This document shows, piece after piece, positions 3,010 to 17,789 of a stretch of 53,892 bases of DNA. The notes under the pieces are model-generated. The model ran no database searches. It saw only the letters and a program-made list of their open reading frames with translations, and was not told the origin of the DNA. Source of the stretch: a virus. The stretch lies in the IMG/VR virus record IMGVR_UViG_3300009550_000020, positions 1 to 53,892 of that record. The stretch is one strand, 5' to 3'. A program made the position numbers and the translations under genes. The stretch's first letter is position 1, and every line of letters begins with the position of its first letter.

Positions 3010-3469
3010 CTTTTTCGTAACCGTGTTCTTTGGCGAGCTCTTTAATTTCTTTTTTTGTAGATATTCTAGCAAGTGTTTCTACCTCGTCCATTTTCATTTC
3101 AGGATATATTTGCGCCAATAACTTTACTGCTTTACTACTGTCGTCTTTTTTCTTCTTCAACCCAATCCAAGGATGAAATTGTTTCTTTCCTGTTTTGCCA
3201 GCAACACATAATAGTTGCCATTGTAGTTTTACGTGATTAGTTCCGCCTAGCTCATTCCAGTTCTTGTTGTAATATTCATTGACTTTGAATACTGCTAGTG
3301 CAGTTTTTTCATAGCTACCTTTTACACTACTAATATAACGGTTTAAGTTCCATAAGTCAAGTTTTATATCCTTCTTGCCATCTTCCCCGGCAGCATCATA
3401 CAGCTCTTTGAATCCCATATCAATGCTTGGAATAAGTTCCTTAAACAAGTCAAGTTCTTTATTGGGCAT
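2999..3469 (-). CDS. Conserved phage protein of unknown function, 156 aa
   Basis: Starts MPNKELDLFKELIPSIDMG. Recognisable blocks are LWNLNRYISSVKG, WQLLCVAGKTG and FHPWIGLKKKKDDSS, followed by a lysine-rich helical C-terminus (ISTKKEIKELAKEHGYE). The start codon overlaps the stop of apt (TAATG) with AAAGG upstream, so translation is probably coupled. Basic, helical composition fits a nucleic-acid or replication-associated protein, but I know no function for the family. Confidence 0.7.
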   Translation of the reverse strand: MPNKELDLFKELIPSIDMGFKELYDAAGEDGKKDIKLDLWNLNRYISSVKGSYEKTALAVFKVNEYYNKNWNELGGTNHVKLQWQLLCVAGKTGKKQFHPWIGLKKKKDDSSKAVKLLAQIYPEMKMDEVETLARISTKKEIKELAKEHGYEKVDI

Positions 3470-4014
3470 TACATTACCTTTTCTAAATATGCCATATCGA
3501 TGTGCAACGGTTCATTTCTTACATATTTTAAATCTATTACTGTACTAATACCTAACACACTTGCACCTGTTTGTTCTACTAGACGTTTGGTTGCTAACAC
3601 ACTGCCACCTGTTGCTACCAAGTCATCTGCTATTATAACACGATCTGTATGTCCAAGTAAACCAGTTTGTAATGTTAGTGTTGCTTGACCATATTCAAGC
3701 GTATAACTTTCTTCCAGTAAATCTCCAGGATACTTTGCACCTGCTTTACGCACCATTATAAAAGGCAAGTTCATTGAATGTGCTAGTATGCTACCTAATA
3801 CAAAGCCTCTACTTTCAATGCCAATTATGTGTGTAGGAGTTCTGTGTTCAAATCTACAACGTGTCTTTATCAAAAGTTCTTCCATAGCTTGGTTAAAATA
3901 TGGACCTGCAAATAAACTATTGAGATCATAAAAATTTACACCTTGTACAGGATAGTCAGGTATTGTTCTTATGTAATCTTTGATTGGAGTTTTTTTTAAT
4001 TCTGTGTTTGCCAT
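3469..4014 (-). CDS. apt: Adenine phosphoribosyltransferase
   Basis: Converts adenine and PRPP to AMP plus pyrophosphate in purine salvage. The sequence has the full APT layout: TIPDYPVQGVNFYDL near the N-terminus (typical IPDFPxxGIxFxD), IIGIESRGFVLG, MVRKAGAKYPG for base and PRPP contacts, and the PRPP-binding signature VIIADDLVATGGS. Length 181 aa is typical. It overlaps kdsB by 19 bases, so both are co-translated. A phage APT could recycle adenine from degraded host nucleic acid, or from a base released by phage metabolism (inference). Assignment is strong. Confidence 0.93.
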   Translation of the reverse strand: MANTELKKTPIKDYIRTIPDYPVQGVNFYDLNSLFAGPYFNQAMEELLIKTRCRFEHRTPTHIIGIESRGFVLGSILAHSMNLPFIMVRKAGAKYPGDLLEESYTLEYGQATLTLQTGLLGHTDRVIIADDLVATGGSVLATKRLVEQTGASVLGISTVIDLKYVRNEPLHIDMAYLEKVM

Positions 4015-4661
4015 TTTTCTAAATCCTCAGGTGTGTTTATTTCTATGCCGTCAAACTCAACTTCGACTACACCAATACGTACTCCATTTTGTATCCAACG
4101 TAACTGCTCTAGTTTTTCAATATCTTCTTCTACAAATTTTGTGCTTGCATTGTACATAGCTTTTGCTTCTCTATTGTAACCATATATACCTAAATGATGA
4201 TCACCATATTCTAAACTAGCACGTAAGAACCAATGCGCTCTTCCTCTGCTGTGTATCATTTTAACACTATTTGGATCATTACGCAAATTAAAATCCATTG
4301 GTGTATATGCTGTTGCTACATCACTCCTATACAACTCATTTTCAACTGCAAGTATTATTTCTGAAGTTATATCGGGCATATCGCCTTGTACATTTATATA
4401 TCTATCATACTGTAATTTTTCATCAATCACTTGCATACAACGTTCAGTGCCGTTTTCTGCCTCTTGTGTCATAATACATTTACCACCACCCATATGGTTA
4501 TATACTTCTTGTGCATCTGTAAGCACATATGTATCTAAGCCAGTTGCTGAACATTTATTGTAAACTACTTCAACTAAAGGAACTCCATTTAATGGCGCCA
4601 TCATTTTACCAGGAAATCTTGTACTTGCATATCTTGCAGGTATTAGTATTGCTGTTGTCAT
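3996..4661 (-). CDS. kdsB: CMP-Kdo synthetase (3-deoxy-manno-octulosonate cytidylyltransferase)
   Basis: Activates Kdo with CTP to give CMP-Kdo, the donor for Kdo transfer in LPS and capsule. The N-terminus MTTAILIPARYASTRFPGKM is the KdsB signature; the metal-binding NVQGDMPDI (family NVQGDEP), the segment LRASLEYGDHHLGIYGY and the C-terminal EINTPEDLE also fit. The start at 4661 is preferred over upstream codons because AAAGGA lies 8 bases before it. At 221 aa it is slightly shorter than cellular KdsB (about 250). It lies in one run with kdsA and overlaps apt. The family is certain; sugar specificity is inferred from the paired kdsA. Confidence 0.92.
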   Translation of the reverse strand: MTTAILIPARYASTRFPGKMMAPLNGVPLVEVVYNKCSATGLDTYVLTDAQEVYNHMGGGKCIMTQEAENGTERCMQVIDEKLQYDRYINVQGDMPDITSEIILAVENELYRSDVATAYTPMDFNLRNDPNSVKMIHSRGRAHWFLRASLEYGDHHLGIYGYNREAKAMYNASTKFVEEDIEKLEQLRWIQNGVRIGVVEVEFDGIEINTPEDLEKWQTQN

Positions 4662-4662
4662 T

Positions 4663-5226
4663 TTACATCCTTTCCATTTGGTACAAATTATCTTGCACTT
4701 TTTGTACAGTAGGAATAGCATCAAAATCTACGTAAGTTTGGTTACTGAACTTACAACTATTCTTTGGTAACAATATTTTTGATTTTGTTTTTTGTAACCA
4801 AAAGTCAAATCCTAACGGTCTATGTCTGACACAAATATCCCAGGCTGCTCCATACATATAAACTGATTGTATTTCATCAATGTTTGGAAACTCCCAAGGA
4901 TAATGTATTGTATACAAATTTTTTGTTTGTGTCAACCTCCAAACTTCAGGATTTGTAATATGTTCTTCTTTATGATTAAACACTTGGTCGTATTGTATAT
5001 TTTTTATTTTACTAATCCAATTGTGTTCGCCTACAAATTGTTTTGTAGTTTGTGCAATTGGATGTGTCCATTCTTTGTCACACACATCGTATGTAGCAAC
5101 AATTACTGTGTCAATATCTTTACTCTCAACATCTGTAATCCATTTTTTATGTGTAGCTTTAGTAAGCAAATCTAAACTGCCATCAGCTAGTGTCCATAAA
5201 TCAATGAGTACAGCAATATTTTTCAT
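4663..5226 (-). CDS. Unknown protein between kdsA and kdsB, possibly isochorismatase-like
   Basis: 187 aa from the ATG that overlaps the kdsA stop (TAATG), implying coupled translation. The opening MKNIAVLIDLW has a hydrophobic strand followed by Asp, as in cysteine hydrolases of the isochorismatase fold, and MYGAAWDICVRHRPLGFDFW resembles the G-x3-D-x-CV motif of that fold with its nucleophilic Cys. The match is short and the catalytic Lys is not clear. The usual Kdo pathway needs a Kdo-8-phosphate phosphatase (KdsC) between KdsA and KdsB, and no HAD-type phosphatase motif (DxDxT) is present here. Filling that gap is a hypothesis only. Confidence 0.6.
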   Translation of the reverse strand: MKNIAVLIDLWTLADGSLDLLTKATHKKWITDVESKDIDTVIVATYDVCDKEWTHPIAQTTKQFVGEHNWISKIKNIQYDQVFNHKEEHITNPEVWRLTQTKNLYTIHYPWEFPNIDEIQSVYMYGAAWDICVRHRPLGFDFWLQKTKSKILLPKNSCKFSNQTYVDFDAIPTVQKVQDNLYQMERM

Positions 5227-6029
5227 TATAACCAATGCCAATTAGTTGCTGTTTTATACGTATGATATATCTGTTTTACAGTATCTTCAAATTCACTTAA
5301 TTGTAACATATTAGGACCATCACTTGGTGCGTTGTCAGGGTCAGGATGTACTTCTATAAAAAAAGAAGATATCCCAAGAGCGGCCCCAGCACGACCAAGA
5401 TGAGGCACATACCTGCGATCACCGCCACTGGAGGTTCCGTTGCCTCCTGGTCTTTGTACCGAATGAGTAATGTCATAAACAAAGTTGGTACCAAGATCGC
5501 TAAGGAGATCGTACATACCAGTGAAATCATTAACAAGACGCCCATATCCAAAACTTGTTCCTCTCTCTGTAATCCAAACTTCTTTTGCACCATAATGTGC
5601 TGTTTTACCTAATATTCCTTTAACATCTGAAGGTGCTAGGAACTGTCCTTTTTTTACATTTACAATACAGCCAGTATCACAAGCCGCTTTAATCAAATCT
5701 GTTTGTCTACACAAGAACGCAGGAATTTGCAGTACATCAATACTGCTAGTCATTCTATTCCAATCTTTGATTTGATAAACTTGTGACTCAGTATGCACAT
5801 CAGTAAGTGTTTTTATTTCTAAACTTTTTTTGATTGTATCAAAATGTTTCAGTGTATCTTCTAAGCCAACACCACGTTTGCCTGATATACTTGTGCGATT
5901 GGCTTTGTCAAAACTTGCTTTGAAATAATATTCGATACCGTACCTATCGCAAACCCGTTTGCATTCTTTAGCAATTTCAACACTTTGTGATAAAGTTTCG
6001 TGTTGACAAGGTCCTGCTATAATTCTCAT
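5226..6029 (-). CDS. kdsA: Kdo-8-phosphate synthase
   Basis: Condenses phosphoenolpyruvate with arabinose-5-phosphate to Kdo-8-phosphate. Clear family motifs: IIAGPCQHETLSQS at the start, YYFKASFDKANRTSISGKRG (substrate-binding FKASFDKANRtS), TDVHTESQV, VLQIPAFLCRQTDL, VNVKKGQFLAP, VYDITHSVQRPGG and FIEVHPDPDNAPSDGPNML. 267 aa is close to the normal 280. The Cys in AGPC is the residue found in metal-dependent KdsA enzymes, where metal-independent ones have Asn. It starts within the end of the upstream 88-aa gene (ATGA overlap) and overlaps the next gene by one base. Very secure. Confidence 0.96.
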   Translation of the reverse strand: MRIIAGPCQHETLSQSVEIAKECKRVCDRYGIEYYFKASFDKANRTSISGKRGVGLEDTLKHFDTIKKSLEIKTLTDVHTESQVYQIKDWNRMTSSIDVLQIPAFLCRQTDLIKAACDTGCIVNVKKGQFLAPSDVKGILGKTAHYGAKEVWITERGTSFGYGRLVNDFTGMYDLLSDLGTNFVYDITHSVQRPGGNGTSSGGDRRYVPHLGRAGAALGISSFFIEVHPDPDNAPSDGPNMLQLSEFEDTVKQIYHTYKTATNWHWL

Positions 6030-6292
6030 TTGCTATCCTTTACAATATAATATGTTGTTACTGCCGCTTGTAATTGTTTTTTTAGTGTTGGGTATTCTTT
6101 TGCTAAATCCATCATTTCTTGCCACTGACTATAACTAAATAGATTTCCTTGTGCCCTACTAATACCATCTGCATCGCCACCTATTATCCATCTTGGTATT
6201 TGGTTATGTGGTGGATCTCTATACCTTGCGTAAAGAACGTCATCTACACGCTCATAAATTAATGCTTCACCAGGTATAAGTTTTTCATCCAT
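6026..6292 (-). CDS. Conserved small phage protein, 88 aa
   Basis: Starts MDEKLIPGEALIYERVDDV and contains YARYRDPPHNQIPRWIIGGD, which I recall as a conserved block in unnamed small proteins of T4-like marine phages. The C-terminal half is helical (QWQEMMDLAKEYPTLKKQL). Overlaps the methyltransferase upstream by 8 bases and kdsA downstream by 4, so it is embedded in the operon. No function can be given. Confidence 0.75.
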   Translation of the reverse strand: MDEKLIPGEALIYERVDDVLYARYRDPPHNQIPRWIIGGDADGISRAQGNLFSYSQWQEMMDLAKEYPTLKKQLQAAVTTYYIVKDSK

Positions 6293-6836
6293 TTTTTTCT
6301 AACAACACAATATATTTTATCATATGTATGTTTTGCCCTTGTATAAATCTATCTTTTTCTTTTACTTCTTCAAAAACAAAAGACCAGTTATATTTTTCTA
6401 ATTTATTTCTCCACCAATTTGGTTGTTCTATTATTAAATGTGCATTTCTGCCATCACGTAATTTTTTCTTTGCAGGATGACAAGCAATTAAATGATATTG
6501 ATACTTCGTTGCAATATTAAACAAAACATCTAATGTATCATCTATAAATTCAGGTTCAACGTGTTCCAATACATCACTGCTATAAACTATATCAACTTGT
6601 TCAGGTAGATCAATAGGTGATGTTACTGGGTCATAAGAATATACTTTTATATTATTATTATATTCTTTTACTGTTGTACTAAACTTTCCTTTCCCGCATC
6701 CAAAATCTAATAAACTATCTACACTTGTTATATATGGCTGTAACTTTTTTGGAACTTTTGAACCGCCACTACCAAAGTCAGTTGTCCTATGTAGGTGTTT
6801 CAACTGATTTACATATTGTGTAGTTAGTTGACTCAT
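6285..6836 (-). CDS. SAM-dependent methyltransferase, 183 aa
   Basis: Class I methyltransferase core: SLLDFGCGKGKFSTTV is motif I (SAM-binding glycine loop), KVYSYDPVTSPI carries the acidic motif II residue, and VDIVYSSDVLEHVEPEFIDD is the typical motif IV-V region (SDVLEHV). The C-terminal half holds a tryptophan-rich EQPNWWRNKLE segment. It overlaps the cupin gene by 4 bases (ATGA). Its substrate is not shown. Co-location with Kdo and sugar genes suggests a small molecule or sugar rather than DNA; DNA methyltransferase motifs (DPPY or PC) are absent. Confidence 0.85.
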   Translation of the reverse strand: MSQLTTQYVNQLKHLHRTTDFGSGGSKVPKKLQPYITSVDSLLDFGCGKGKFSTTVKEYNNNIKVYSYDPVTSPIDLPEQVDIVYSSDVLEHVEPEFIDDTLDVLFNIATKYQYHLIACHPAKKKLRDGRNAHLIIEQPNWWRNKLEKYNWSFVFEEVKEKDRFIQGQNIHMIKYIVLLEKNG

Positions 6837-7177
6837 ACTGTTGTGCCGACAGACCTTCTTACAATATCATTATGATTAAATTCTGCCCAATACAATTCAA
6901 ATGCAACACCATCTTCAAGTCCTTCAAACTGATGAATTACGCCAGGCTTAACTTGTGTAAAATCACCTGGTCCAAGAATAGTTTCGTCTATGAGCTCATA
7001 ATCTTTTTGCCAAACACGAACAAGCATTTTACCTGACTCAACAAAAAAGCCATTCCACTTAAATTGATGCTCGTGTTCACTACATTTGTAACCACCTTTA
7101 AATTCAATACGATGAAACTCTAATACACCGTTAGCGTGGATAAGTTCTGTCTGTCCCCAAATCTTTCCTGCTTTCAT
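6833..7177 (-). CDS. Cupin-domain protein, 114 aa
   Basis: A single cupin barrel: GYKCSEHEHQFKWNGFFVESG is cupin motif 1 (metal-binding HxH-type) and GDFTQVKPGVIHQFEGL is motif 2 (PG-x-x-H). Length fits a single-domain sugar epimerase or isomerase-like cupin. A clear AGGAG site precedes the ATG. A second cupin is fused to the nucleotidyltransferase at 14765-15541, so two cupins are in this glycan-rich genome. A role in sugar metabolism is inferred from context only. Confidence 0.85.
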   Translation of the reverse strand: MKAGKIWGQTELIHANGVLEFHRIEFKGGYKCSEHEHQFKWNGFFVESGKMLVRVWQKDYELIDETILGPGDFTQVKPGVIHQFEGLEDGVAFELYWAEFNHNDIVRRSVGTTV

Positions 7178-7186
7178 TTTACTCTC

Positions 7187-7693
7187 CTATAGCAACTTGC
7201 CAAAGTCAATAACTTCACTTTGACGATTTATATCTTTTACAAAAAATGCACAATATGGATCATTGCCTTCTGCAATTGGAACACTTAGTAGCTGTCCTGT
7301 TTTCAATTTAGGAAAATACCATTTTACATCATTGTAAAAATTTACTATTTCTATTTTACCGAATTTAGGTTTACTACTAGTTAAAGGATTAAAAAGATAT
7401 GCTTCAAATCCTCTTTGATTTAAACTAGTCAAAGGCAACACTTCTAAATCACTGCCTGCTTGACTACATCCTACTGCTAAACACCAATCCAATGGCATTG
7501 TAATTTGATTATCGTTTATTTCTAAAACAACAGCTGGCGAACTAAAACTTTCTAAGAAAATTAATGGTATAAAAAAGAAATCCGGATCTTGAGGATTGCT
7601 GTTATCAAGCACACTAAATCTTACTGAATCATCTACTTCTTCTGGCACTGTGTTTAAATTAAAACTTCTGTTTTCTAATGTTAATATATTCAT
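7187..7693 (-). CDS. Conserved phage protein next to uvsW, 168 aa
   Basis: Starts MNILTLENRSFNLNTVP; conserved-looking blocks are DNSNPQDPDFFFIPLIFL, MPLDWCLAVGC, LEVLPLTSLNQRGFEAYLFN and DVKWYFPKLKTGQLL. I recall the same protein beside uvsW in marine T4-like phages, without a known function. The ATG follows the uvsW stop directly, so it is co-translated with the helicase. A regulatory or replication-linked role is possible from position only. Confidence 0.75.
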   Translation of the reverse strand: MNILTLENRSFNLNTVPEEVDDSVRFSVLDNSNPQDPDFFFIPLIFLESFSSPAVVLEINDNQITMPLDWCLAVGCSQAGSDLEVLPLTSLNQRGFEAYLFNPLTSSKPKFGKIEIVNFYNDVKWYFPKLKTGQLLSVPIAEGNDPYCAFFVKDINRQSEVIDFGKLL

Positions 7694-9157
7694 TTATTTC
7701 CAATCTACCTTTTCAATGGTGAATGGGTACTGTGCTTCCTTATAAAACTTTTTACGTTGGGTAAGGTGCCGCTTCGCAAACTTACAAGTACTCGTAAGGT
7801 CCCATATTTGTACGAAGTCTTTGTCCTTTGCCTTTCTAACGCCTCTGCCGATACTTTGTATTACTCTTACAAAAGACTTACCAGGTTCGATAAGAACAAG
7901 GTTAAAAATACGAGGTATGTTTATACCAACAGCGGCAACACCATAAGTAGCAATTACTACGTGATTAGTGCCTTCGTTGATTTCGTCATACGCATTTTTT
8001 CGGTCCTTTAATTTAACATCACCTTTTACAAAAGTTGATCCGGGTATAAGTTCTTGTAGCATTTCGCCTGCTGAAATTCTATCTACAAGTATAAGAGTGT
8101 TGCCTGATTCTTTTACTGTGTTTAATAATTTGCCTAAATAATCTATTCTATCTTGATTTGTAACAAGATATTTTAATTCTTCTTGATATCCTTTGTGTAC
8201 TACTGTGTCTATTAATTGTACAATGTTTACGTGACACTGAGATAGCACACCTTTGTCTTGTAATTCTTTTGCTGATATTTCTCCAATAACAGGACCTAAA
8301 CTAGCGTGTATTGATTCAAACTCAAACTTTTCTTTAGGAATAGTGCCAGTAAGTCCCCAACGTATTGGAGCATTTTTTAAGTTGCGTGTTAGCAAGTTCT
8401 TTAGTACTTCTGCTTTTGCTTGATGTACTTCGTCTACAATAACCGTGCTCACACCATCTAAGAACTCTGCTAGTGATAACACTGCTTCTCCGTCCTTGTG
8501 CTTCTTGTCCAGTATGTTCAATGACTGCCAAGTGCAGATGGTGTGAGTCTTACCTAACTCTTTTCTATCTCCAAAATAAACGCCAACGTCAAGTCCGCAG
8601 TTTATATAATCTTCTTCTGTTTGTGTAACTAAACTTTTGTTTGGAACAATAACTAAACTACGTCCATATTTCTCACCCATATGTGATAATGTTGCTGTTG
8701 TAATAGTTTTGCCTGCTCCTGTAGCAATTTGTTGTAAACTTTGTGGATTGTTTGCAAAATTGTTTATTGCTTCTACTTGATAGTCACGCAGAATAATTTC
8801 TTCGCCTTCAGCTGGATGTCTTTTAGGCCAATGCACTCCTTGGTCAGCCCAATATCTTTCAGACACTTGTGGAAAGTCTAATTGTATAGGATGACGTTTG
8901 TCTTCAATATCAACAATTTGTACATTGTTTTTTTCTAGTACATTTGTAATAGTATCAAGATGATTTACATAGCCAGTGCCACCAATACCAAAAAAAGCAA
9001 CCTTACCATCCCAACGTCCAAGTTTATATTGTGGCATATATCGTGCATACGGAACTTCAAACTTAAGAGCATTGGATAACTTCCGCCGAACATCAACATC
9101 AAGTCCTTCGATTTTGATGTTTACTTCATCTTCGATTATTAATTTACAACTTGCCAA
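7694..9157 (-). CDS. uvsW: UvsW-type RNA-DNA and DNA-DNA helicase
   Basis: Superfamily 2 helicase that in T4 unwinds branched DNA and R-loops and shifts replication from origin to recombination mode. The N-terminal segment (KFEVPYARYMPQYKLGRWDG) is the UvsW DNA-binding domain. Then come the Q-type motif LRDYQ, Walker A ATGAGKT (residues 145-151), Walker B VDEVH (241-245), motif III GLTGTIP, and C-terminal GINIPR and QSIGRGVRK (motif VI). 487 aa is close to T4 UvsW (about 500). It uses a TTG start with AAAGGG 8 bases before it, overlapping the upstream gene by 19 bases. Confidence 0.95.
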   Translation of the reverse strand: MASCKLIIEDEVNIKIEGLDVDVRRKLSNALKFEVPYARYMPQYKLGRWDGKVAFFGIGGTGYVNHLDTITNVLEKNNVQIVDIEDKRHPIQLDFPQVSERYWADQGVHWPKRHPAEGEEIILRDYQVEAINNFANNPQSLQQIATGAGKTITTATLSHMGEKYGRSLVIVPNKSLVTQTEEDYINCGLDVGVYFGDRKELGKTHTICTWQSLNILDKKHKDGEAVLSLAEFLDGVSTVIVDEVHQAKAEVLKNLLTRNLKNAPIRWGLTGTIPKEKFEFESIHASLGPVIGEISAKELQDKGVLSQCHVNIVQLIDTVVHKGYQEELKYLVTNQDRIDYLGKLLNTVKESGNTLILVDRISAGEMLQELIPGSTFVKGDVKLKDRKNAYDEINEGTNHVVIATYGVAAVGINIPRIFNLVLIEPGKSFVRVIQSIGRGVRKAKDKDFVQIWDLTSTCKFAKRHLTQRKKFYKEAQYPFTIEKVDWK

Positions 9158-10371
9158 TTATTGAACCCTTTGTTATAATGTGTTCTAAAACTGCTTAAAT
9201 CTGTATCGTTGTATACAATTAAATCACAGTTGTAACTTACATAATTTGTAACAAGTCTATTAGAACGTAAACTTGATTTGCAAACTGCTGTACGTGGTTT
9301 GAAGTTACTTTTTAATAATACTTTTGGTAGTTTGTCTTTTTTAATATACACTACTTTTGTATCTTGGTCTACCCAATTATTAAGACTGTTTTCTTTTACA
9401 AAGTTGTTTAGAGGATTGTTTACTTTATCACTGCTTTCAACTCTAAACATAACACTTTGTAAATTATCAGGAACAAACTTTTTAATTGATGTATACATTT
9501 CTTGCACTTGTTCAAATGCATCGTCTTTGTCTACACATACTAATAATGGATATCTATTTAAATAATCTAAACAATCAACTATATCGTAAAGGCTGTATAT
9601 TTCTATATTAGCAAGCACTGTAGGTTCTTTACGATAAGCAATACTATCAAGTAATGTATCTTTTGCAGGCTCATTAATATAAAATCCGTATTCAACAGAT
9701 GCATCAGCAATGTTTACTTTGTCTTTTGATTCTAACAACGATACTATTTTTTCATCAACATTAATAAACTTATTGTTTTTATATTGGGGAATATAGTCTT
9801 CTTTGTTGTCTAATATTTCTTGTACCTTATCTGATAATTCAATTACTTCTTTATCAGTTTGCCACTCTGGAAATGCTGTTCTAATTTTATAACTGTTTAT
9901 AGGATCAAGTTTAAAATAATGTTCGTGTGAATTTTTTTCGTGAAAGTATGTTTTATTATTGTTACTATGAATTATACTTTCTAGTTTTGCAATAAATTTT
10001 TTGTTAAAAGGAAATCTTACTTTTATATAATTGCCTTCTTTTAATGACCAATGTGTTCTTGTATTTTTAACAATTTTATCAAACTCAACAACTTCTATAG
10101 ATTTTGTTCTATCTATTTCTCTAAATTCTGTTGAACAGCTTTGCATTGCTGCTTGCCAATTACCTATTTCGTTTTTCTTAAATTGTGATCCATAGACTTC
10201 TAATTTAGTTTTTAACAAATTAAACTGTCTATCAGTAAGTGCTACGCCTTTACATATTTGTCTATCAAAACTATTCAACAAAGTTAGGTCTGCATCTCTT
10301 AATGCAAAGTTGTGTCCGTACTTGCCCAATACCACTTGAAGCAAGTCTTCAATGTAATTTATTTCAGTCAT
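9139..10371 (-). CDS. Conserved unknown protein upstream of uvsW, 410 aa
   Basis: Starts MTEINYIEDLLQVVLGKYGH. An N-terminal block (SFDRQICKGVALTDRQFNLL, then YGSQF) is one I recall in proteins preceding uvsW in marine T4-like phages. Further on, YIKVRFPFNKKFIAKLESI could be a HARP-like or helicase-accessory segment; this is weak. The C-terminal 150 residues look alpha/beta, without Walker motifs. It overlaps uvsW by 19 bases, so a joint role in recombination or replication restart is likely. A sigma-70-type promoter ends 5 bases before its ATG and no Shine-Dalgarno sequence is seen. Confidence 0.7.
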   Translation of the reverse strand: MTEINYIEDLLQVVLGKYGHNFALRDADLTLLNSFDRQICKGVALTDRQFNLLKTKLEVYGSQFKKNEIGNWQAAMQSCSTEFREIDRTKSIEVVEFDKIVKNTRTHWSLKEGNYIKVRFPFNKKFIAKLESIIHSNNNKTYFHEKNSHEHYFKLDPINSYKIRTAFPEWQTDKEVIELSDKVQEILDNKEDYIPQYKNNKFINVDEKIVSLLESKDKVNIADASVEYGFYINEPAKDTLLDSIAYRKEPTVLANIEIYSLYDIVDCLDYLNRYPLLVCVDKDDAFEQVQEMYTSIKKFVPDNLQSVMFRVESSDKVNNPLNNFVKENSLNNWVDQDTKVVYIKKDKLPKVLLKSNFKPRTAVCKSSLRSNRLVTNYVSYNCDLIVYNDTDLSSFRTHYNKGFNNWQVVN

Positions 10372-10376
10372 ATTTT

Positions 10377-10405
10377 ATAATAGCAGATTAGAGTAAATTA
10401 GTCAA
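10377..10405 (-). promoter_or_regulatory. Sigma-70-type promoter TTGACT-17-TATTAT
   Basis: Minus strand: -35 TTGACT (10400-10405), exactly 17 bases, -10 TATTAT (10377-10382). Five bases (AAAAT) then separate it from the ATG at 10371. Start of transcription would fall on or next to the ATG, implying a leaderless mRNA for the uvsW operon. The -35 box lies within the end of the upstream gene. Confidence 0.6.
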
Positions 10406-11239
10406 TCTATTTAAAGGTATACCTTGTTCTATTTCTGGTATAGTAAATTCTGTCCAAGCATAATCATTCAACCATTGTTGTCTTTCTGGCTTTTTTGGAT
10501 TTTTAATTTGCGATAAATGTTGATTTGCTATAGGCCACGCTAAACTACTTGGCCCAGTAAAAACAGGAATACCGTGTATGGCTGCTTGAATACCTGGATT
10601 ACTACTCCAACTTATAAGTGCAAAAACATCTTTGAAACTTAGATTAAAATCATCATATGTGCCACGTAATTGTACAGGATCATCTCTATAAACGTTTTGA
10701 TATTGACGTTCTATATGTTCTAATCTGCAACGTGGATGCGGTCTAAATATAATTGGCATATCAGTGTATGTTTTTATTTCATCTATAATACTCATAACCC
10801 AATTACTCATACGTGGCATATTTTGCCACTGTAAACTTTTATCGTGTTGTCCACAGATCAAAATATGATCCCCATTATTTCTCCAAGGTTTTAGATGTAG
10901 CCCGAGTTCAGTAGCTCTAGTACTATCCATATTACTACTACCAAAAGAAGCGTCCCTATTAATTCCATTTAGACCTACTTTCCAAGTTGTGCCACGTTTT
11001 ATACCTCCAACTTCAAGTACAATAACAGGCTTGTTTTGTTTTTTACAATTCATCCATATATGTTTGTTTGGAGCCATTCTGCCAGCAAATAATACACTCC
11101 ATATTACGTGTACATCAGCATCACTAATTTTTTCGCTTTTAGATATACTATGTCCAGCTTCAAGAATACTTTTCTTAAATGCTTCAAATACAGGAGTTGA
11201 ATTCATTGCTCCATATTCATTCCATAATTTAAATATCAT
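10388..11239 (-). CDS. KpsC/KpsS-like capsule-type glycosyltransferase, 283 aa
   Basis: Shares a domain with the 12110 protein and the C-terminal part of the 13029 protein: GDHILICGQHDKS, then IIFRPHPRC (RPHP), then a Ser-Asn-Pro-Gly loop, GIPVFTGPSSLAW, and the end motif IKNPKKPERQQWLNDYAW with an acidic helix. This order matches capsule polysaccharide transferases of the KpsC/KpsS type, several of which transfer Kdo. The start MIFKLWNEYG (11239) is chosen over the longer open frame, which runs into the divergent gene at 11280; GGAG lies about 12 bases upstream. Acceptor unknown; Kdo as donor is inferred from kdsA and kdsB. Confidence 0.75.
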   Translation of the reverse strand: MIFKLWNEYGAMNSTPVFEAFKKSILEAGHSISKSEKISDADVHVIWSVLFAGRMAPNKHIWMNCKKQNKPVIVLEVGGIKRGTTWKVGLNGINRDASFGSSNMDSTRATELGLHLKPWRNNGDHILICGQHDKSLQWQNMPRMSNWVMSIIDEIKTYTDMPIIFRPHPRCRLEHIERQYQNVYRDDPVQLRGTYDDFNLSFKDVFALISWSSNPGIQAAIHGIPVFTGPSSLAWPIANQHLSQIKNPKKPERQQWLNDYAWTEFTIPEIEQGIPLNRLTNLL

Positions 11240-11279
11240 ATGTAAATACTCCAGTACACTATTTAACAAGGGAAATAAA
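11240..11279. promoter_or_regulatory. Divergent spacer with two late-type boxes
   Basis: Plus strand TGTAAATA (11241-11248) points at the 11280 gene and minus strand GTTAAATA (11260-11267) points at the 11239 gene. The boxes face each other. Both genes have ribosome sites (AAGGG and GGAG). Promoter activity is inferred from similarity to the ATAAATA boxes elsewhere. Confidence 0.3.
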
Positions 11280-12122
11280 ATGTCAGCAATAACTGTGGTT
11301 ACAACATTCAATAAACAAGGAATGGATTTATATGGACAAAGATTTATAGAATCGTTTGAAGAAAATGTTGATGAATCTATAAAGTTATATGTGTATGCAG
11401 AAGATTGCTTTCCTGCTATTGTAGGAAGACATCGTGTTTTTGAACTACAAACAAGACAAGTATTACCTAAACTAATAGAGTTTAAAAAACGCTGGAAAGA
11501 TGTACCAAAAGCAAATGGTGTACCTCCAGACGATATAAAAGCACGTAGACCTAGAGATTGGCATAAAGAGTTCAAATGGAATGCTGTACGTTTTGCTAAT
11601 AAAGTTTATGCAGTATTAGATGCATTTGAAAAAAGTACTGATTGGTGTGTATGGATGGATGGAGATACATTTGTACACAATGAGTGGAGTTACAAACAAT
11701 TTAAAAAATTATTGCCAGACGATAAATGGATTACATACGTAGGTAGAGGTAAAGGTTCGCAAACTTGGCCCGAGTGCGGCTTTTATGGATTAAACAAAAA
11801 CCACCCAATGTGTGTTCAATTTATAAAAGAGTTTGAAAGATTTTATGAAGATGCAGAAAACGGTATCTTTGAATTAGAAGAATGGCACGATAGTTTTGTA
11901 TTTGGCCACATCTTAAATCAGCTCAAAAAAATTGATAATAATGTTTTAGATTATAGTGCTGATATGTATTTGAAAGAAGCAAAAACCGGAGGCGGAGGGC
12001 ATCCTTTGATTAATACAGTGTTAGGAACTTGGATCGATCATATGAAAGGTGATAGAAAAAACACAGGTAAAAGTTTAGCTAAAGATATGATGGTCAAAAG
12101 AACTGAAAGTTATTGGACGTAG
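11280..12122 (+). CDS. Glycosyltransferase with DxD motif, 280 aa
   Basis: A GT-A type transferase: ITVVTTFNKQGMDLYGQRFI at the N-terminus, then DWCVWMDGDTFVHNEW with the metal-binding DGD, and a C-terminal segment with DSFVFG, YSADMYL and GGGGHPLINTVLGTWIDHMKG. The last segment is typical of phage-encoded transferases of this family. The start MSAITVV is preceded by AAGGG; upstream codons are antisense to the 10388-11239 gene. It is the only plus-strand gene in the glycan cluster and its end overlaps the convergent 12110 gene by 13 bases. Donor and acceptor are unknown. Confidence 0.78.
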   Translation: MSAITVVTTFNKQGMDLYGQRFIESFEENVDESIKLYVYAEDCFPAIVGRHRVFELQTRQVLPKLIEFKKRWKDVPKANGVPPDDIKARRPRDWHKEFKWNAVRFANKVYAVLDAFEKSTDWCVWMDGDTFVHNEWSYKQFKKLLPDDKWITYVGRGKGSQTWPECGFYGLNKNHPMCVQFIKEFERFYEDAENGIFELEEWHDSFVFGHILNQLKKIDNNVLDYSADMYLKEAKTGGGGHPLINTVLGTWIDHMKGDRKNTGKSLAKDMMVKRTESYWT

Positions 12123-13042
12123 TTTTTTATATGACTCCAACATTGTCCTGTTTCTAGTTCACTAAAGTTCCAATGAAACATACTTATTCTACGTAACCAC
12201 TTTAGCCTATCAAACATTTTTGGATTTTCAATATCCGATAAATGATGATTACTAACTTCTGCACATTGACTTTTATTTGGTTCTGTAACAAATGCATTGT
12301 AGCCTTTAATAATAGGTCCTACTATACCACTACTATTTTTATTAATTACAGCGTGACAATTCCGCAAATCATTTTCAAGCATATTTGTAGGATCACATAG
12401 TTGCACTTTATTCAGCTTGTAAAATGGATTGTGTCTTGGATTTAAAAATAACTTTGATTTTTTACAACCAGGATGTGGTCTTATTCTTATAATTCTATCA
12501 CATCCTGTCTTTCTAATTTGTCTAACTGTCCGCATAGTCCAGTCTACAACATCTTCTCCGCCCATACTCCAACCGCCTTGTCTTTGTAGCAAAATTAGAA
12601 TATGGTTACCATTTGTTTTCTGTTCCTCAATACGTATACCTGTATTGGTACTAATTTTATTCCATCTAGTTTCGTCTACATTATCGTCACAATATATTCC
12701 TGTATCTGGAAATACACCGTTTAAACTATATCTTAAATATCCGTGTGGGTTAGCTTTATTTGCATATAAAAATAAATTTGCATCTGCAACTATAGTATAT
12801 TTGTTATTTTTTTGTTGATGATCGATTACTTTTTTTCTTAAATCTAAATGACTTGGTCTGGTATCAGAATACACCCAACCTTGAATTACTGCTGCATCAC
12901 AATCAACAGGAAAATAGCCTTGCATCAAATGAGATTCATCGCCGATACGCTGTACACCATTGTGAAATTTTATTATTAGTTCTTCTTTTTGTTTATTAGT
13001 ATTACCTCTTGGAACACTAGTAAGGTAATTAACTACTTTCAT
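12110..13042 (-). CDS. KpsC/KpsS-like capsule-type glycosyltransferase, 310 aa
   Basis: Second copy of the domain found in the 10388 protein: GNHILILLQRQGGWS, RIIRIRPHPGCKKS (RPHP), AVINKNSSGIVGPIIKG with the Asn-Ser-Ser loop that binds donor phosphates in such enzymes, and the closing DIENPKMFDRLKWLRR then FSELETGQCW. The N-terminal half (VIQGWVY, VADANLFLY) is a Rossmann-like GT-B half. It overlaps the next gene upstream by 14 bases. Sequence divergence from its paralogue suggests a different acceptor. Family confidence is fair; Kdo specificity is inferred. Confidence 0.75.
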   Translation of the reverse strand: MKVVNYLTSVPRGNTNKQKEELIIKFHNGVQRIGDESHLMQGYFPVDCDAAVIQGWVYSDTRPSHLDLRKKVIDHQQKNNKYTIVADANLFLYANKANPHGYLRYSLNGVFPDTGIYCDDNVDETRWNKISTNTGIRIEEQKTNGNHILILLQRQGGWSMGGEDVVDWTMRTVRQIRKTGCDRIIRIRPHPGCKKSKLFLNPRHNPFYKLNKVQLCDPTNMLENDLRNCHAVINKNSSGIVGPIIKGYNAFVTEPNKSQCAEVSNHHLSDIENPKMFDRLKWLRRISMFHWNFSELETGQCWSHIKNYVQ

Positions 13043-14765
13043 TTAAAATACGCCACGCAGTACCATCTTGCATTTCTTGCTTTGTAAATTGACAATATGT
13101 TAAATGAGCTGCATATGCTTCCATAGTTAGTTTATCAAATTTTGTAGGATTTTCTACTTGTGACAAACTAGTGTCACATAAAACAGTGGCAGCATTTGGT
13201 CCTAATGCAATTGCAGGTTTGCCGTTTAGCAATGCTTCTGTTGCTGCAATGCTATTATACGTGACTACACAATGCACATCGTTTTGCAAAGCGTGTATAA
13301 TATTACCGTCCGCTATACGTTCGTTACGCTTTGGTTTTAATCTAACTTCTACAGGTCTGTCTGTATATTTTTTAAGTTCTTTAATAACATTTTGTGTCCA
13401 CTCTTCTGGAGTAGGTTGTTGCCAAAACTTCATTACTTTATCACTTGGCGGACAAATTAATATTTTTCTTCCTGGATGAAATTTTAAATATTTCCATCCT
13501 AGTCTATTTAATCTGTCACTAGGACGTTCTTTAATTGGTCCTAGATGTTGTAAAGCATTTTTTGTTATGCGATGCCATACTTTACTTTTGGTTCTTTCAT
13601 TTCCTAAATAACCGCTGTCGATAGCAAAGAAATCTCTTTTCTTTTGCCAACACTCTTTAATTGCAAGTTGACTCTTTTTACCCAAGCCTCTTATAAGTAA
13701 TGGCACACTTGATTTTTGCTCTTGTTCCCAAGTGCTAAGTTCTCCACTAGGAATACCTTGTACTAATGCTTCTAAATATTCGTCAAACTCATAACCTTTT
13801 TTCTGTGGATTAAAATTACCTTCATCATAGTCAGGAAAAATTGCTGCTACTCTATCACCTCGTATTGCCATTAACTCCTCCTTAAAATCTGTTTCGTAAA
13901 ATTTTGCATCTGGATCCTTCAAATGATTGAAGAACTTAACCATTAATTTTTTTTTTTGGTCGTCCATTATAATGTTTTCAGGATGTATTCTTTCGTTTAT
14001 TTCAACTTCTTTATCACGTTTGCGTTTTTCATCTAAACTTTGTGCTTTGGCGCTTGCGTGTTTATATGCATAAGACAAATAATTATTTTTTGCTTTGTAC
14101 CACTCAAGTGCATATTCGCAATTTTCATATTCTTTAAACCAAGGCCCGCCTTCTGTATAGTGTAATGCTTTTGGTCTACCATCCTTTGGTTCTTGGTACC
14201 AACCTACAAGCCAATTCCATTCGTGACTTAATTCTCCTATTTCAGCATCAGGCACCCAACTGAATCTATGGAAGTATGCACCAGTTTTCAATGTGTCGTT
14301 AATCAACTCTTTTCCTAATACACCATTTGTATAACTACTACAATTTATTAACATCATACTACTCCAATTTTTTCTAGGATATTGATGCTGTACTTTGCCA
14401 TCCATTTTTGTACCTTCTTTAGGTGTATAATCGTGTTGAGCACACATAATAGCATACTTTTTATCTGCTTGATCGAATAGTTTCTTTACATCATCTAAAA
14501 AAACAAAGTCACAATCAATAAACAATGACCAGCCTGTAAAGCCACTTAGGTATGGCACTAAAAACCTTGTAAATGTAAATTCAGTACTAGCCATTGCATC
14601 TAAAGGTCTATTGTATATGTCCTTTTTTCTTAATTCGTCCTGTTTAAGTGGAATAATTTTTACAGGAACAGAAGCGTGATCTAATATGCTTTGTTTGCAC
14701 ACTTGAAATGCAATATCTTCTCTACTATCCCATCCTACAAATATTTTTAAGGGTTCTTGTTCCAT
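13029..14765 (-). CDS. Two-domain glycosyltransferase: GT-A domain fused to KpsC/KpsS-like domain, 578 aa
   Basis: Residues 1-230 form a GT-A (glycogenin/GT8-like) domain: KIFVGWDSREDIAFQVCKQS, GWSLFIDCDFVFLDDV (metal-binding DCD), SSMMLINCSS and ALHYTEGGPWFKEY. Residues 230-400 are a charged linker. The C-terminal about 180 residues (GRKILICPPSD, VEVRLKPKRN, VTYNSIAATEALLNGKPAIALG, then QVENPTKFDKLTMEAYAA) are the third copy of the capsule-transferase domain. Two sugar-transfer sites in one chain suggest consecutive addition of two residues. Overlaps the nucleotidyltransferase gene by one base (TGATGG). Confidence 0.8.
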   Translation of the reverse strand: MEQEPLKIFVGWDSREDIAFQVCKQSILDHASVPVKIIPLKQDELRKKDIYNRPLDAMASTEFTFTRFLVPYLSGFTGWSLFIDCDFVFLDDVKKLFDQADKKYAIMCAQHDYTPKEGTKMDGKVQHQYPRKNWSSMMLINCSSYTNGVLGKELINDTLKTGAYFHRFSWVPDAEIGELSHEWNWLVGWYQEPKDGRPKALHYTEGGPWFKEYENCEYALEWYKAKNNYLSYAYKHASAKAQSLDEKRKRDKEVEINERIHPENIIMDDQKKKLMVKFFNHLKDPDAKFYETDFKEELMAIRGDRVAAIFPDYDEGNFNPQKKGYEFDEYLEALVQGIPSGELSTWEQEQKSSVPLLIRGLGKKSQLAIKECWQKKRDFFAIDSGYLGNERTKSKVWHRITKNALQHLGPIKERPSDRLNRLGWKYLKFHPGRKILICPPSDKVMKFWQQPTPEEWTQNVIKELKKYTDRPVEVRLKPKRNERIADGNIIHALQNDVHCVVTYNSIAATEALLNGKPAIALGPNAATVLCDTSLSQVENPTKFDKLTMEAYAAHLTYCQFTKQEMQDGTAWRILNESS

Positions 14766-15541
14766 CAGTCTCTTCTTTCTATATCATCTTCTGTCAATTC
14801 TTTACCAAGCCATACTTCTATTACTTTAGCAGATTGATTATCTAAGTTTACTGCTTTGTGCCAGTAACCAATAGGTATATCAATGCTATCACCTGGCACT
14901 AATAGTTTACTTGTTTCATTGCCGTTCTTATCTTCAAGAAACATATTAATTACACCATCAACAACGTGCCAATGTTCACTACGTTTAAAATGTCTTTGAT
15001 CGCTTAGTTCTTGTCCTTGTAAAAATTCTAATTGCTTTACTTGCCAGCCTTCGCCTTTATCTAAAACAGTGTACTTGCCCCAAGCACGTTCTGTTGTTGG
15101 TTGGCTCCAATCTTTCAATATCCAACTACTTGAATTTTTCTTTTCTGATCCACCAACACTAAACACAAACTCTACCTCAGTGCTATCACCATACTTTTCA
15201 TATTCAGGTGTGCTTATAAGTGTTCTATCACCGCCATTAGCAAAAACAACTCTCCAGTTACTACCTTTTGTGCTTAATACTGTGAAGATTGCTGCACAGG
15301 CACTATTATCGCTATCGTCAAAAGCAATAACTTGATCAACACATTCCATTTCTTTTATAATTTCAGCACGTTCTCTAAATGGCATAAATGCTCGGCCTTT
15401 TTTACGTGCAAGCCATTCGTCACTGTTTAGTCCCACAACAAGTTTGTCTCCTAATTTTTTTGCTGCTTTGAAGTATGCAATGTGTCCTGAGTGTATAGGA
15501 TCAAAACCTCCTGTAACTAATACTGCTTTTTTACCAGCCAA
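14765..15541 (-). CDS. Nucleotidyltransferase-cupin fusion protein, about 258 aa
   Basis: Residues 1-140: cytidylyltransferase-like fold with VLVTGGFDPIHSGHIAYF (the HxGH signature, here HSGH), VVGLNSDEWLARKKG and FRERAEIIKEM, close to the HldE (RfaE) ADP-heptose synthase nucleotidyl domain and TagD. The C-terminal 110 residues are a cupin like the isomerase half of mannose-6-phosphate isomerase/GMP enzymes (RHFKRSEHWHVVDG, LVPGDSIDIPIGYWHKAVN). TTG at 15541 has AAAGGA 8 bases upstream; an in-frame GTG at 15562 lies further up without a site. Probably makes a nucleotide-activated sugar or sugar alcohol; substrate unknown. Confidence 0.83.
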   Translation of the reverse strand: MAGKKAVLVTGGFDPIHSGHIAYFKAAKKLGDKLVVGLNSDEWLARKKGRAFMPFRERAEIIKEMECVDQVIAFDDSDNSACAAIFTVLSTKGSNWRVVFANGGDRTLISTPEYEKYGDSTEVEFVFSVGGSEKKNSSSWILKDWSQPTTERAWGKYTVLDKGEGWQVKQLEFLQGQELSDQRHFKRSEHWHVVDGVINMFLEDKNGNETSKLLVPGDSIDIPIGYWHKAVNLDNQSAKVIEVWLGKELTEDDIERRD

Positions 15542-16151
15542 AGATATAATCCTTTCTGACACTACTTATTTCAAAAGCACCGTGTGATTTCAAAAACTCA
15601 CCTGCACAATATTCAGTATCTGGATGTTGTTCAACAATAACAATTGGCTTGTATTTTTTTAGAGTGTTTATGCCACCCTTTAGTACTTCTAGTTCGTGTC
15701 TTTCACAATCAATTTTAATTAGTTCAAACGGAGGCATAAAACTTTGGTCAAGTGTTTTTACTTTAATGTTGCCTTCTTTACCGTTAATAAAACTATTTCC
15801 TGTGTTGTTTGGATCATAAGTCATATCTACATTTTTTTGTTCACTACCTAGTGCAAAATTATTTAGAATAACATTCTCAATACCTTTTGTATTTTCTATT
15901 AAACATTCAAAAACTTGTGCCATAGGTTCAAAGGAAATTACTTTGTTAAATTTCTTTGACAGCGGAACAGTCCATAATCCTACATTTGCACCAACGTCAA
16001 TTGCTGTGTTAAATTCTTTCACATACAAAAATGCTTCGTCTCTAACATCGTCTTGGTATTCAGCAGGACCACCTTGACTAATACGTTTGTTTATCATTCT
16101 TTCAAAATGTGTATCTGTATCTGGCAAATAATAATTATGAACTTTTTTCAT
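15531..16151 (-). CDS. FkbM-family methyltransferase, 206 aa
   Basis: Typical FkbM layout: NTAIDVGANVGLWTVPLS (SAM-binding loop), KVISFEPMAQVFECLIEN (FEP motif), VKTLDQSFMPPFELIKIDCE (IKIDCEG-like motif, here DCER) and KPIVIVEQHPD. These enzymes O-methylate sugars and other small groups. It sits in the glycan cluster and overlaps the nucleotidyltransferase gene downstream and the transferase upstream by 17 bases. O-methylation of a glycan made by the cluster is the likely use (inference). Confidence 0.87.
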   Translation of the reverse strand: MKKVHNYYLPDTDTHFERMINKRISQGGPAEYQDDVRDEAFLYVKEFNTAIDVGANVGLWTVPLSKKFNKVISFEPMAQVFECLIENTKGIENVILNNFALGSEQKNVDMTYDPNNTGNSFINGKEGNIKVKTLDQSFMPPFELIKIDCERHELEVLKGGINTLKKYKPIVIVEQHPDTEYCAGEFLKSHGAFEISSVRKDYIFGW

Positions 16152-17061
16152 TAATAATTCTTTCTAGCTCAAGCCATTTATCTACTACTTTAATTGGTGT
16201 ATAGTACTTATTAATATGGTCCTGGCCCATTAAAACTTTTTGGTGAACTTCGTTTGGATTATGTACAAAGTATTGAAAACCTGCTGTTAAATTACCTGTC
16301 CATATATAATCTTGCAAATCAACATAACTTGGTATGTAACTTTGTGTAATTACAAACTTTCCTTGTTGTAATGCATCTATTGGTCTATTGTTGCCTTTAC
16401 CTTTTACAAATTTTTCTATTTTGTCTTTGTAAAAAATTGGTAGCAAAATAGCATCACTATTGTTAACCATTTCTTCTTGTGTTTCATAACTCCAATTCAT
16501 CCACCAGCTTGGATCGTCTATATTTTTATTTGTTACAACATCAATGTGTACGTTTGGATGTATAGTTTTAAAATTAGCAATTATCATATCAAAGTTTACT
16601 TTGTGAATATTTTTTCTTGCTCCATAACATACAAGTTTTATAATATCATTGCTACTAAAAACTTTTTTAATTGGTTTACTTTGTTTTCTTTCTGTTAAGT
16701 CTGCTATAATATAACATTTATTTTTAAACAATCTTTCTACATCTCTTGCTAGATATTCACAGGTAGCAACAAAAAATTTACAATGCTTTGCAGCCTTTGT
16801 GTACAAATCTATAACATCTTGTTTATAAAATTTATAGTCAGATATATCACAAATAAATTTTGCATTTTTATCTATTAAAGAATTTAAAATTTCGTTTGTA
16901 AATTTTTTACCAAATACAAATAATCTATTATCATTCTGTTGTATCTGGTTTAAATCTGTAATAAGACCGTTGTTATTGCTGTCCATATTTTCAAGTAACA
17001 AAGTACCTCTTGATCTAAAACTATATCTATTGTGTTCTTTGTCACTTACATAAAAATACAT
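16135..17061 (-). CDS. Probable GT-B glycosyltransferase, 308 aa
   Basis: Starts MYFYVSDKEHNRYSFRSRG. The N-terminal half holds a KFICDISDYKFYK segment and FFVATCEYLARDVERLF (the VATxxLAxxL type signature of GT-B enzymes); the C-terminal half has IIKLVCYGARKNIHKV (inter-domain start), SDAILLPIF, then KGNNRPIDALQQGKFVITQS, the donor-site loop followed by a conserved Gly-Lys-Phe-Val strand. Donor and acceptor unknown. Adjacent genes are a nucleotidyltransferase upstream and a methyltransferase downstream. Confidence 0.72.
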   Translation of the reverse strand: MYFYVSDKEHNRYSFRSRGTLLLENMDSNNNGLITDLNQIQQNDNRLFVFGKKFTNEILNSLIDKNAKFICDISDYKFYKQDVIDLYTKAAKHCKFFVATCEYLARDVERLFKNKCYIIADLTERKQSKPIKKVFSSNDIIKLVCYGARKNIHKVNFDMIIANFKTIHPNVHIDVVTNKNIDDPSWWMNWSYETQEEMVNNSDAILLPIFYKDKIEKFVKGKGNNRPIDALQQGKFVITQSYIPSYVDLQDYIWTGNLTAGFQYFVHNPNEVHQKVLMGQDHINKYYTPIKVVDKWLELERIINEKSS

Positions 17062-17789
17062 TATTCTTCCTGGTATTCTGATAACAGTCTACGTATCTCG
17101 CCCCAAGTACCTAAGTCTATATAATCCTCGACTTCTATACCTTCAGTATTATAAAAAGGTGTATATGTCATTTTATTTTTATTAACTTTTTGTTTTAATG
17201 TACTTTTTTCCATATATTCTATAGCAGGCATAAAAGAACTTGCTCTAAATGCAAAGCTACACCAATAAGCATTAAATTTTGCAAAGTCAGTTTGAGGTTT
17301 ATCCTCATAAAATTTAACAACATTATTTTCCATTTGTAATGCACCTTTTGTTGATAACATTAATGGATCTGTTTCTTTTTTGTAAAAAAATACAAATTCG
17401 TTATTTACTAATTTATCTTTAACTTGCGTATACAAATCTTCAGTGCCCTTTAGTTTCAAAATAGTATCTGGTAATAAAACCACATTGTCTTCACCAAACC
17501 AACTGTAGGCACTTTTAATTGCACCAGTATATTCTAATTCTTTTGGATTTTGATATACAAAAGCAATATTGTATTTGTTTTTGTACTTTGATAGATATTC
17601 AACTATTTCAGTTTTGTATTCATTAATTACTATAACAAAGTCTACACTATTTCTGTCATAGTCTTTAAACCAGTCAAAACTATAATCTATAAGTGCTTGA
17701 TTTTTATCTAGTCTAAGTATTTCTTTGGGATAAGGTAAATTTAATCTTGTGCCTTTACCTGCGGCAGGAAGTATTACTGTTAGGGTCAT
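17061..17789 (-). CDS. Sugar-phosphate nucleotidyltransferase, 242 aa
   Basis: GT-A-fold NTP transferase like RfbA or GalU: MTLTVILPAAGKGTRLNLPYPKEIL is the nucleotide-binding signature (G-x-G-T-R-L and PKE). VVLLPDTILKLKG carries the metal-binding Asp, and VEDYIDLGTWGEIRRLLSEY is the closing helix. It would make an NDP-sugar, most likely UDP- or dTDP-type. It is the first gene of the glycan cluster, directly after uvsY. It has no fused cyclase or kinase domain. Confidence 0.88.
   Translation of the reverse strand: MTLTVILPAAGKGTRLNLPYPKEILRLDKNQALIDYSFDWFKDYDRNSVDFVIVINEYKTEIVEYLSKYKNKYNIAFVYQNPKELEYTGAIKSAYSWFGEDNVVLLPDTILKLKGTEDLYTQVKDKLVNNEFVFFYKKETDPLMLSTKGALQMENNVVKFYEDKPQTDFAKFNAYWCSFAFRASSFMPAIEYMEKSTLKQKVNKNKMTYTPFYNTEGIEVEDYIDLGTWGEIRRLLSEYQEE

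Follow-up and report, generated by a model that had tools for sequence, protein, structure and literature searches.

Does a phage that encodes enzymes of cytidine monophosphate (CMP)-Kdo synthesis (Kdo, 3-deoxy-D-manno-octulosonic acid) next to several putative glycosyltransferases also transfer Kdo? This question is raised by the virus record IMGVR_UViG_3300009550_000020, a 53.9 kb stretch (53,892 nucleotides, analyzed as a whole and called the window below) from a marine T4-like phage. An earlier note on this DNA had argued that kdsA, kdsB and three transferase domains in one phage suggest the addition of Kdo or a similar sugar to a phage glycoprotein or to the host surface. The genes and the fold of the two transferase domains that were modelled, KPS1 and KPS2 (the third is named KPS3), support this argument, whereas a catalytic aspartate (Asp) missing from all three and the retention of the transferases in phages without kdsA and kdsB weaken it. 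The cassette probably remodels a surface sugar coat, and its link to Kdo is not proven. The reading that we prefer, tentatively and just short of calling it probable, is that of a phage glycan-remodelling cassette in which kdsA and kdsB optionally boost CMP-Kdo, KPS1 and KPS2 transfer a Kdo-like CMP-sugar, and the host surface is the target.

The transferase domains are all encoded on the minus strand. KPS1 (10388..11239) and KPS2 (12110..13042) are single beta-Kdo-transferase-like glycosyltransferases, and KPS3 is the C-terminal part (residues ~301–578) of a fusion protein (13029..14765) whose N-terminal part (~1–300) resembles glycosyltransferase family 8 (GT8; phrog_28018, E = 7e-53). The two halves of this fusion are separate genes in several relatives (L005, L086 and L090). 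The proposed kinship of the three domains was confirmed by BLASTP (E = 1e-17, 9e-8 and 2e-12) and by profile–profile comparison (E = 7e-39, 3e-25 and 1e-28). For KPS1, the upstream TTG start of the open reading frame (ORF) as listed was rejected in favor of an ATG at approximately 11239; the listed extension overlaps a glycosyltransferase gene on the plus strand (11280–12122). Scans of Pfam, NCBIfam and PHROG yielded nothing above the cut-off for any of the three domains, and profile searches did not place them in a Kdo-transferase family: KPS3 scored 12.8–14.1 bits against Pfam Capsule_synth (PF05159; KpsC/KpsS; cut-off 20 bits), KPS1 and KPS2 did not match this model, and a sequence-profile search of KPS1–KPS3 against all PDB chains returned no match. 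The relation to Kdo transferases was found by fold comparison only. The N-terminal domain model of GT30 (WaaA/KdtA, PF04413) had no match in 29 records.

AlphaFold2 modelling, based on 43 relatives for KPS1 and 47 for KPS2, gave mean predicted local distance difference test scores of 95.6 and 94.1, respectively. When these models were compared with the PDB using Foldseek, ranks 1–24 were occupied for each model by chains of beta-Kdo transferases (KpsC/GT107, WbbB/GT99 and KrkA/GT140), with best E-values of 3e-7 for KPS1 and 7e-7 for KPS2. VIA-align gave Z-scores for KPS1 of 13.8 with KpsC (239 residues, root-mean-square deviation 3.9), 12.8 with WbbB and 10.8 with KrkA, and for KPS2 of 13.9 with KpsC (241 residues, 3.9), 13.0 with WbbB and 12.2 with KrkA. 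The first unrelated GT-B structures appeared at Z-scores of 10.3–10.4, and the margin of KrkA over them was accordingly below 1 for KPS1. Both models thus have the modified GT-B fold of GT107, GT99 and GT140, although a fold in common does not mean a function in common.

In solved beta-Kdo transferases, a QXXXD motif is invariant, of which the glutamine (Gln) holds the Kdo carboxylate and the Asp forms a covalent intermediate, and a (K/R)XHP motif, also found in several sialyltransferase families, binds CMP (PMC10148158, PMC12887879). The register of these positions was secured by aligning 309 distinct domains; the loop columns of KPS1, KPS2 and KPS3 from the window fall together there with no gap. 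Every sequence of KPS1 (43/43; Q131 and RPHP in the window) and KPS2 (47/47; Q153 and RPHP) keeps the Gln and RXHP, and the position of the Asp is taken by an invariant serine in KPS1 (S135) and an invariant glycine in KPS2 (G157). KPS3 has neither motif, with proline in place of the Gln and lysine in place of the histidine of HP; the RPHP motif that had been attributed to all three domains is therefore present in KPS1 and KPS2 and replaced in KPS3 by RLKP (lysine in 40/40 aligned relatives). Complete QXXXD and HP motifs were found in 25 sequences of the same alignment, which belong to SAR11 genomes and to phages of this clade, and a 17-member alignment of these showed Q, D, R, H and P to be invariant. 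One further bacterial genome has GQVPGDAS together with FRPHP. Relatives with complete QXXXD and RXHP (L190:1456-2412 on the minus strand, L191:1216-2172, L112:2753-3691, L173:3303-4220 and L287:1216-2073), which come from SAR11, marine phages and another bacterial genome, are, by these residues, candidate true beta-Kdo transferases.

Judged from the aligned motifs, KPS1–KPS3 lie within a superfamily that holds complete Kdo-transferase motifs and are themselves variants without the nucleophile. The assignment to the family of bacterial Kdo transferases is thus supported by the fold of the KPS1 and KPS2 models and limited by the loss of the Asp in all three domains, for which reason we describe them as beta-Kdo-transferase-like and not as members of GT99, GT107 or GT140. 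This loss could also mean that KPS1–KPS3 are catalytically dead paralogues kept as subunits with a structural or regulatory role in other transferases, in line with the lost HP and frequent GT8 fusion of KPS3; however, the other active-site residues of KPS1 and KPS2 are conserved nearly absolutely, which would argue for catalysis, and we regard this alternative as very improbable. Since RXHP and the Gln are kept and the nucleophilic Asp is not, KPS1 and KPS2 probably transfer a CMP-activated acid sugar by another route.

The sugar-donor genes lie on the minus strand at the other end of the locus, and the earlier note had taken them to produce Kdo-8-phosphate and CMP-Kdo. This view was upheld for kdsA (5226..6029), a 3-deoxy-8-phosphooctulonate (KDO8P) synthase gene of the metal-dependent, cysteine-containing type, which scored above the cut-offs of the equivalog model TIGR01362 (317.6 bits, cut-off 314) and of NF003543 (330.5 bits, cut-off 242) in NCBIfam and matched KDO8P synthases in the PDB (E = 6e-77). 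The KDO8P-synthase signature KANR[ST], KANRT in the window, was retained in 99/99 distinct phage relatives and the metal-type cysteine (GPC) in 98/99. By these features, the gene at 5226–6029 encodes a full KDO8P synthase.

For kdsB (3996..4661, 221 amino acids), only homology to CMP-Kdo synthetases could be established. Its product scored 81 bits against PF02348 (cut-off 22.6), and its best PDB matches were KdsB throughout (E = 1.6e-26); KdsB is thus the best-matching function for 3996–4661, despite an equivalog score (TIGR00466, 111 bits) under the cut-off of 155. Two Asp residues that bind the metal Mg-A, D95 and D219 in the Aquifex enzyme, have been described as strictly conserved in CMP-Kdo synthetases (PMC3149649). 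The first was retained in 84/84 sequences, whereas the second was replaced by asparagine (Asn) in all 80 main-clade phage sequences that extend over this column, including that of the window, and the motif QGDEP was changed to QGDMP in this clade. Asp was present at the second position in 29/30 bacterial KdsB matches, as well as in the KdsBs of SAR11 and of cyanophage S-SCSM2R.

We further analyzed whether the transferases and kdsA/kdsB occur together. Contigs fetched with kdsA show the cassette in synteny, but this sample is biased; contigs fetched with uvsW and having both flanks (n = 35) were drawn regardless of kdsA and form a fairer sample. Among these, KPS1 was found in 34/35 and kdsA in 17/35. 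Among 30 whole records, kdsA and kdsB were both present in 9 and both absent from 21. Since the two genes are present or absent jointly while the transferases are constant, kdsA and kdsB behave as an exchangeable pair.

Several of these results weigh against the preferred reading. The nucleophilic Asp of QXXXD is absent from all three window domains, and the non-canonical active site of the phage KdsB makes even its product uncertain. Transferases were present in 17 kdsA-free contigs among the 35 fetched with uvsW and were retained in whole records without kdsA and kdsB, including those of 262, 115 and 92 kb; in such relatives the transferases do not depend on phage-made CMP-Kdo. In addition, kdsA-bearing phages of other lineages, including S-SCSM2R, mostly lack a KPS domain. 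The KPS domains and kdsA/kdsB might therefore be functionally separate, the former being a general glycosyltransferase family of marine phages that uses other donors (for example, the product of the HldE/TagD-like enzyme described below), and the latter topping up host CMP-Kdo for lipopolysaccharide (LPS). This explanation fits the nearly universal transferases as against kdsA in about half of the contigs, the loss of the Asp, and a closer companion than kdsA in the nucleotidylyltransferase–cupin gene, which was found in 39/47 contigs with a long flank. We also searched for a dedicated Kdo transferase co-varying with kdsA and rejected it, as no glycosyltransferase cluster was exclusive to kdsA contigs, which again suits a separation of functions. 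However, RXHP and the Gln, which make the contacts to CMP and the Kdo carboxylate in enzymes of solved structure, never vary in KPS1 and KPS2, all of the nearest folds belong to Kdo transferases, KPS-type genes adjoin kdsB in some SAR11 genomes, and a Gram-negative host can supply CMP-Kdo, so that kdsA-free relatives do not exclude a CMP-Kdo donor. We consider separate functions a serious possibility, albeit on the doubtful side.

Two other candidate associations were rejected. Replacement of Kdo by a NeuB/NeuA route was not supported, as NeuB was found in 0/30 records and CTP_transf_3 in none of the kdsA-free records. A hint that the QXXXD type tracks kdsA (8/20 versus 0/17) appeared at one flank cut-off, was weaker at others, and was gone on whole records (4/18 versus 3/13, with the subtype read from the score). 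Separately, an adenylyltransferase-like family (L079:3227-3649) and a kinase-like family (L104:10905-11342) were observed in kdsA contigs only, at 26 and 25 loci, respectively, and in 0/23 kdsA-free contigs.

Relatives of the KPS family were also found in SAR11, in 60/110 of the genomes searched. A KPS-type gene directly adjoins a kdsB-like gene in 5/27 fetched SAR11 regions, and a haloacid dehalogenase (HAD) phosphatase gene comes next in 4 of those 5. This adjacency is real but a minority arrangement, and it supports, without proving, a CMP-Kdo-type donor. The operon of KPS3-like, kdsB-like and HAD phosphatase genes was noted at L195:1003-3131, L196:118-2265, L199:7403-9531, L210 and L213. 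In the other SAR11 regions examined, the KPS relative occupies, by eye, a variable site close to purH together with 2-oxoglutarate oxygenases, and some of these regions also appear to hold another putative glycosyltransferase. The genomic contexts in SAR11 therefore favor a surface-glycan role and lend limited support to a CMP-Kdo-type donor. A lone KPS2 homologue (41%) was found between guaA and a redoxin gene in the SAR11 single-cell genome SAG-MED31 (L175:8001-8909), which was the only cellular copy among the four candidates L173–L176. The supposed Marinimicrobia and Euryarchaeota homologues (L173, L174 and L176) were rejected as probable phage contigs binned into metagenome-assembled genomes, with the same cassette beside uvsW; L174 was judged to be phage from a match identical to that of L173.

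On the preferred reading of a host-directed cassette, KdsA would convert host arabinose-5-phosphate and phosphoenolpyruvate to Kdo-8-phosphate, the phosphatase KdsC would presumably be supplied by the host, and KdsB would form CMP-Kdo and raise the donor pool, as family membership suggests. KPS1 and KPS2, which are GT-B enzymes, probably transfer Kdo or a similar CMP-linked acid sugar, not through the known Asp-linked double displacement but in another way, such as direct inversion. KPS3, having lost the CMP-binding motif, probably handles the acceptor or has a different specificity, as a module fused to GT8. A narrower version, in which KPS1 and KPS2 are two new Asp-free families of the beta-Kdo fold, possibly inverting, that move Kdo or a related CMP-ulosonic acid, and in which the Asn-type KdsB activates the same or a modified sugar, seems to us somewhat unlikely. 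Together with GT8, the GT-A glycosyltransferase, the FkbM methyltransferase and the nucleotidylyltransferase–cupin protein, the KPS proteins would most likely assemble or cap an oligosaccharide on the host surface, LPS or capsule. An altered host surface would hinder superinfection, following the proposal published for the GT8/LPS genes of pelagimyophages (PMC7029224). The same set of enzymes might instead glycosylate the phage particle, as the earlier note had also suggested, with a long tail fibre (43402–53280) or another structural protein as the acceptor. A very long tail-fibre-like ORF is indeed encoded in the window, but no carrier or acceptor protein was recognized among the cassette genes, the combination of several glycosyltransferases and sugar-making enzymes resembles clusters for envelope glycans, and SAR11 has close relatives of the transferases as host genes in its variable regions; we consider this alternative improbable.

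Among characterized systems, KpsC (GT107), the retaining beta-Kdo transferase of group 2 capsules, resembles KPS1 and KPS2 in fold, in the Gln of QXXXD and in (K/R)XHP. Unlike KpsC, KPS1 and KPS2 have no nucleophilic Asp, no sequence-profile match to PDB chains and no score reaching the Capsule_synth cut-off, and single modules are spread over three genes in the window, whereas KpsC is one dual-module protein. WbbB (GT99) and KrkA (GT140) likewise share the fold, the Gln and the HP motif, but the KPS domains lack the Asp of QXXXD and are phage-borne putative transferases. The homologues with QXXXD and RXHP in SAR11 and phages, termed KPS4, are related to KPS2 in sequence (E ~1e-35) and, unlike the window domains, have a complete catalytic motif; the KPS4 type is absent from the window and is not linked to kdsA.

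Viral kdsA and kdsB as such are already known: both have been reported as LPS genes common in surface-water viruses (PMC10653327), KdsA has been described from the complete genome of a marine virus (PMC5332604), and KdsA and KdsB are annotated in S-SCSM2R, whose KdsB has Asp where that of the window phage has Asn. In contrast to these cases, the genes belong here to a T4-like clade and accompany a beta-Kdo-transferase-like cassette. In pelagimyophages, GT8 and rfaE-like genes have been proposed to modify the host O-chain, and the available part of this work reports neither kdsA/kdsB nor a beta-Kdo-transferase fold in their LPS/GT8 clusters (PMC7029224); pelagiphage Mosig has GT8 and KPS3-like genes, as in the window. 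The open-licence papers searched contained no description of this fold in phages. None of the KPS domains is annotated in Pfam, NCBIfam or PHROGs, although nearly all members of a marine T4-like phage clade have them and SAR11 genomes carry relatives. Their placement in the beta-Kdo-transferase fold offers a testable function for a large gene family that had none. As variants with and without the nucleophile occur naturally within one family, the origin of the unusual double-displacement mechanism can be tested directly, and the widespread viral pair kdsA/kdsB becomes tied to a plausible, unproven use.

The cassette is located between uvsW and uvsY/uvsX, with a minus-strand order from the uvsX side through the sugar genes and uvsW to kdsA and kdsB. 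Its gene set is syntenic in dozens of independent marine contigs and thus represents more than chance. UvsW (7694–9157), UvsY, UvsX and gp32 are T4-like markers, and the large terminase subunit has its best identity (53%) to phages of the Pseudomonas phage PA5oct type. On the plus strand between KPS1 and KPS2, the gene at 11280..12122 encodes a GT-A (GT2-like) glycosyltransferase (PF00535, a weak 16.4 bits; cut-off 23.3), a conserved partner of the cassette found in 56/57 contigs fetched with uvsW that have at least 5 kb on that side. Four further minus-strand genes lie beyond KPS3 at higher coordinates. The first (14765..15562) encodes a nucleotidylyltransferase (HldE-C/TagD-like) fused to a cupin of the mannose-6-phosphate isomerase type, with scores under both cut-offs (TIGR02199, 71 bits; C-terminal part of TIGR01479, 72.7 bits), and the second (15531..16151) an FkbM-family methyltransferase (TIGR01444, 90.7 bits; cut-off 37.7). 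The third (16135..17061), conserved in the nearest relatives, encodes by eye a probable GT-B glycosyltransferase, with no convincing family match in NCBIfam or PHROG. The fourth (17061..17789) encodes a sugar-nucleotidyltransferase-like protein with weak matches, all below cut-off, to sugar-1-phosphate nucleotidylyltransferase models.

Between kdsB and kdsA, also on the minus strand, a small ORF (4663..5226) had no match in Pfam, NCBIfam or PHROG and is confined to the nearest relatives (L002/L083, L086 and L088); its stretch YGAAWDICVR vaguely resembles, by eye only, cysteine-hydrolase (isochorismatase-like) folds. An adenine-phosphoribosyltransferase-like gene (3469–4014, by eye) adjoins kdsB in the window and was seen in no other locus tested. 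Elsewhere in the window, the tail-fibre-like ORF at 43402–53280 encodes 3292 amino acids, and an ORF at 38878–42177 encodes a protein of 1099 amino acids with repeated units.

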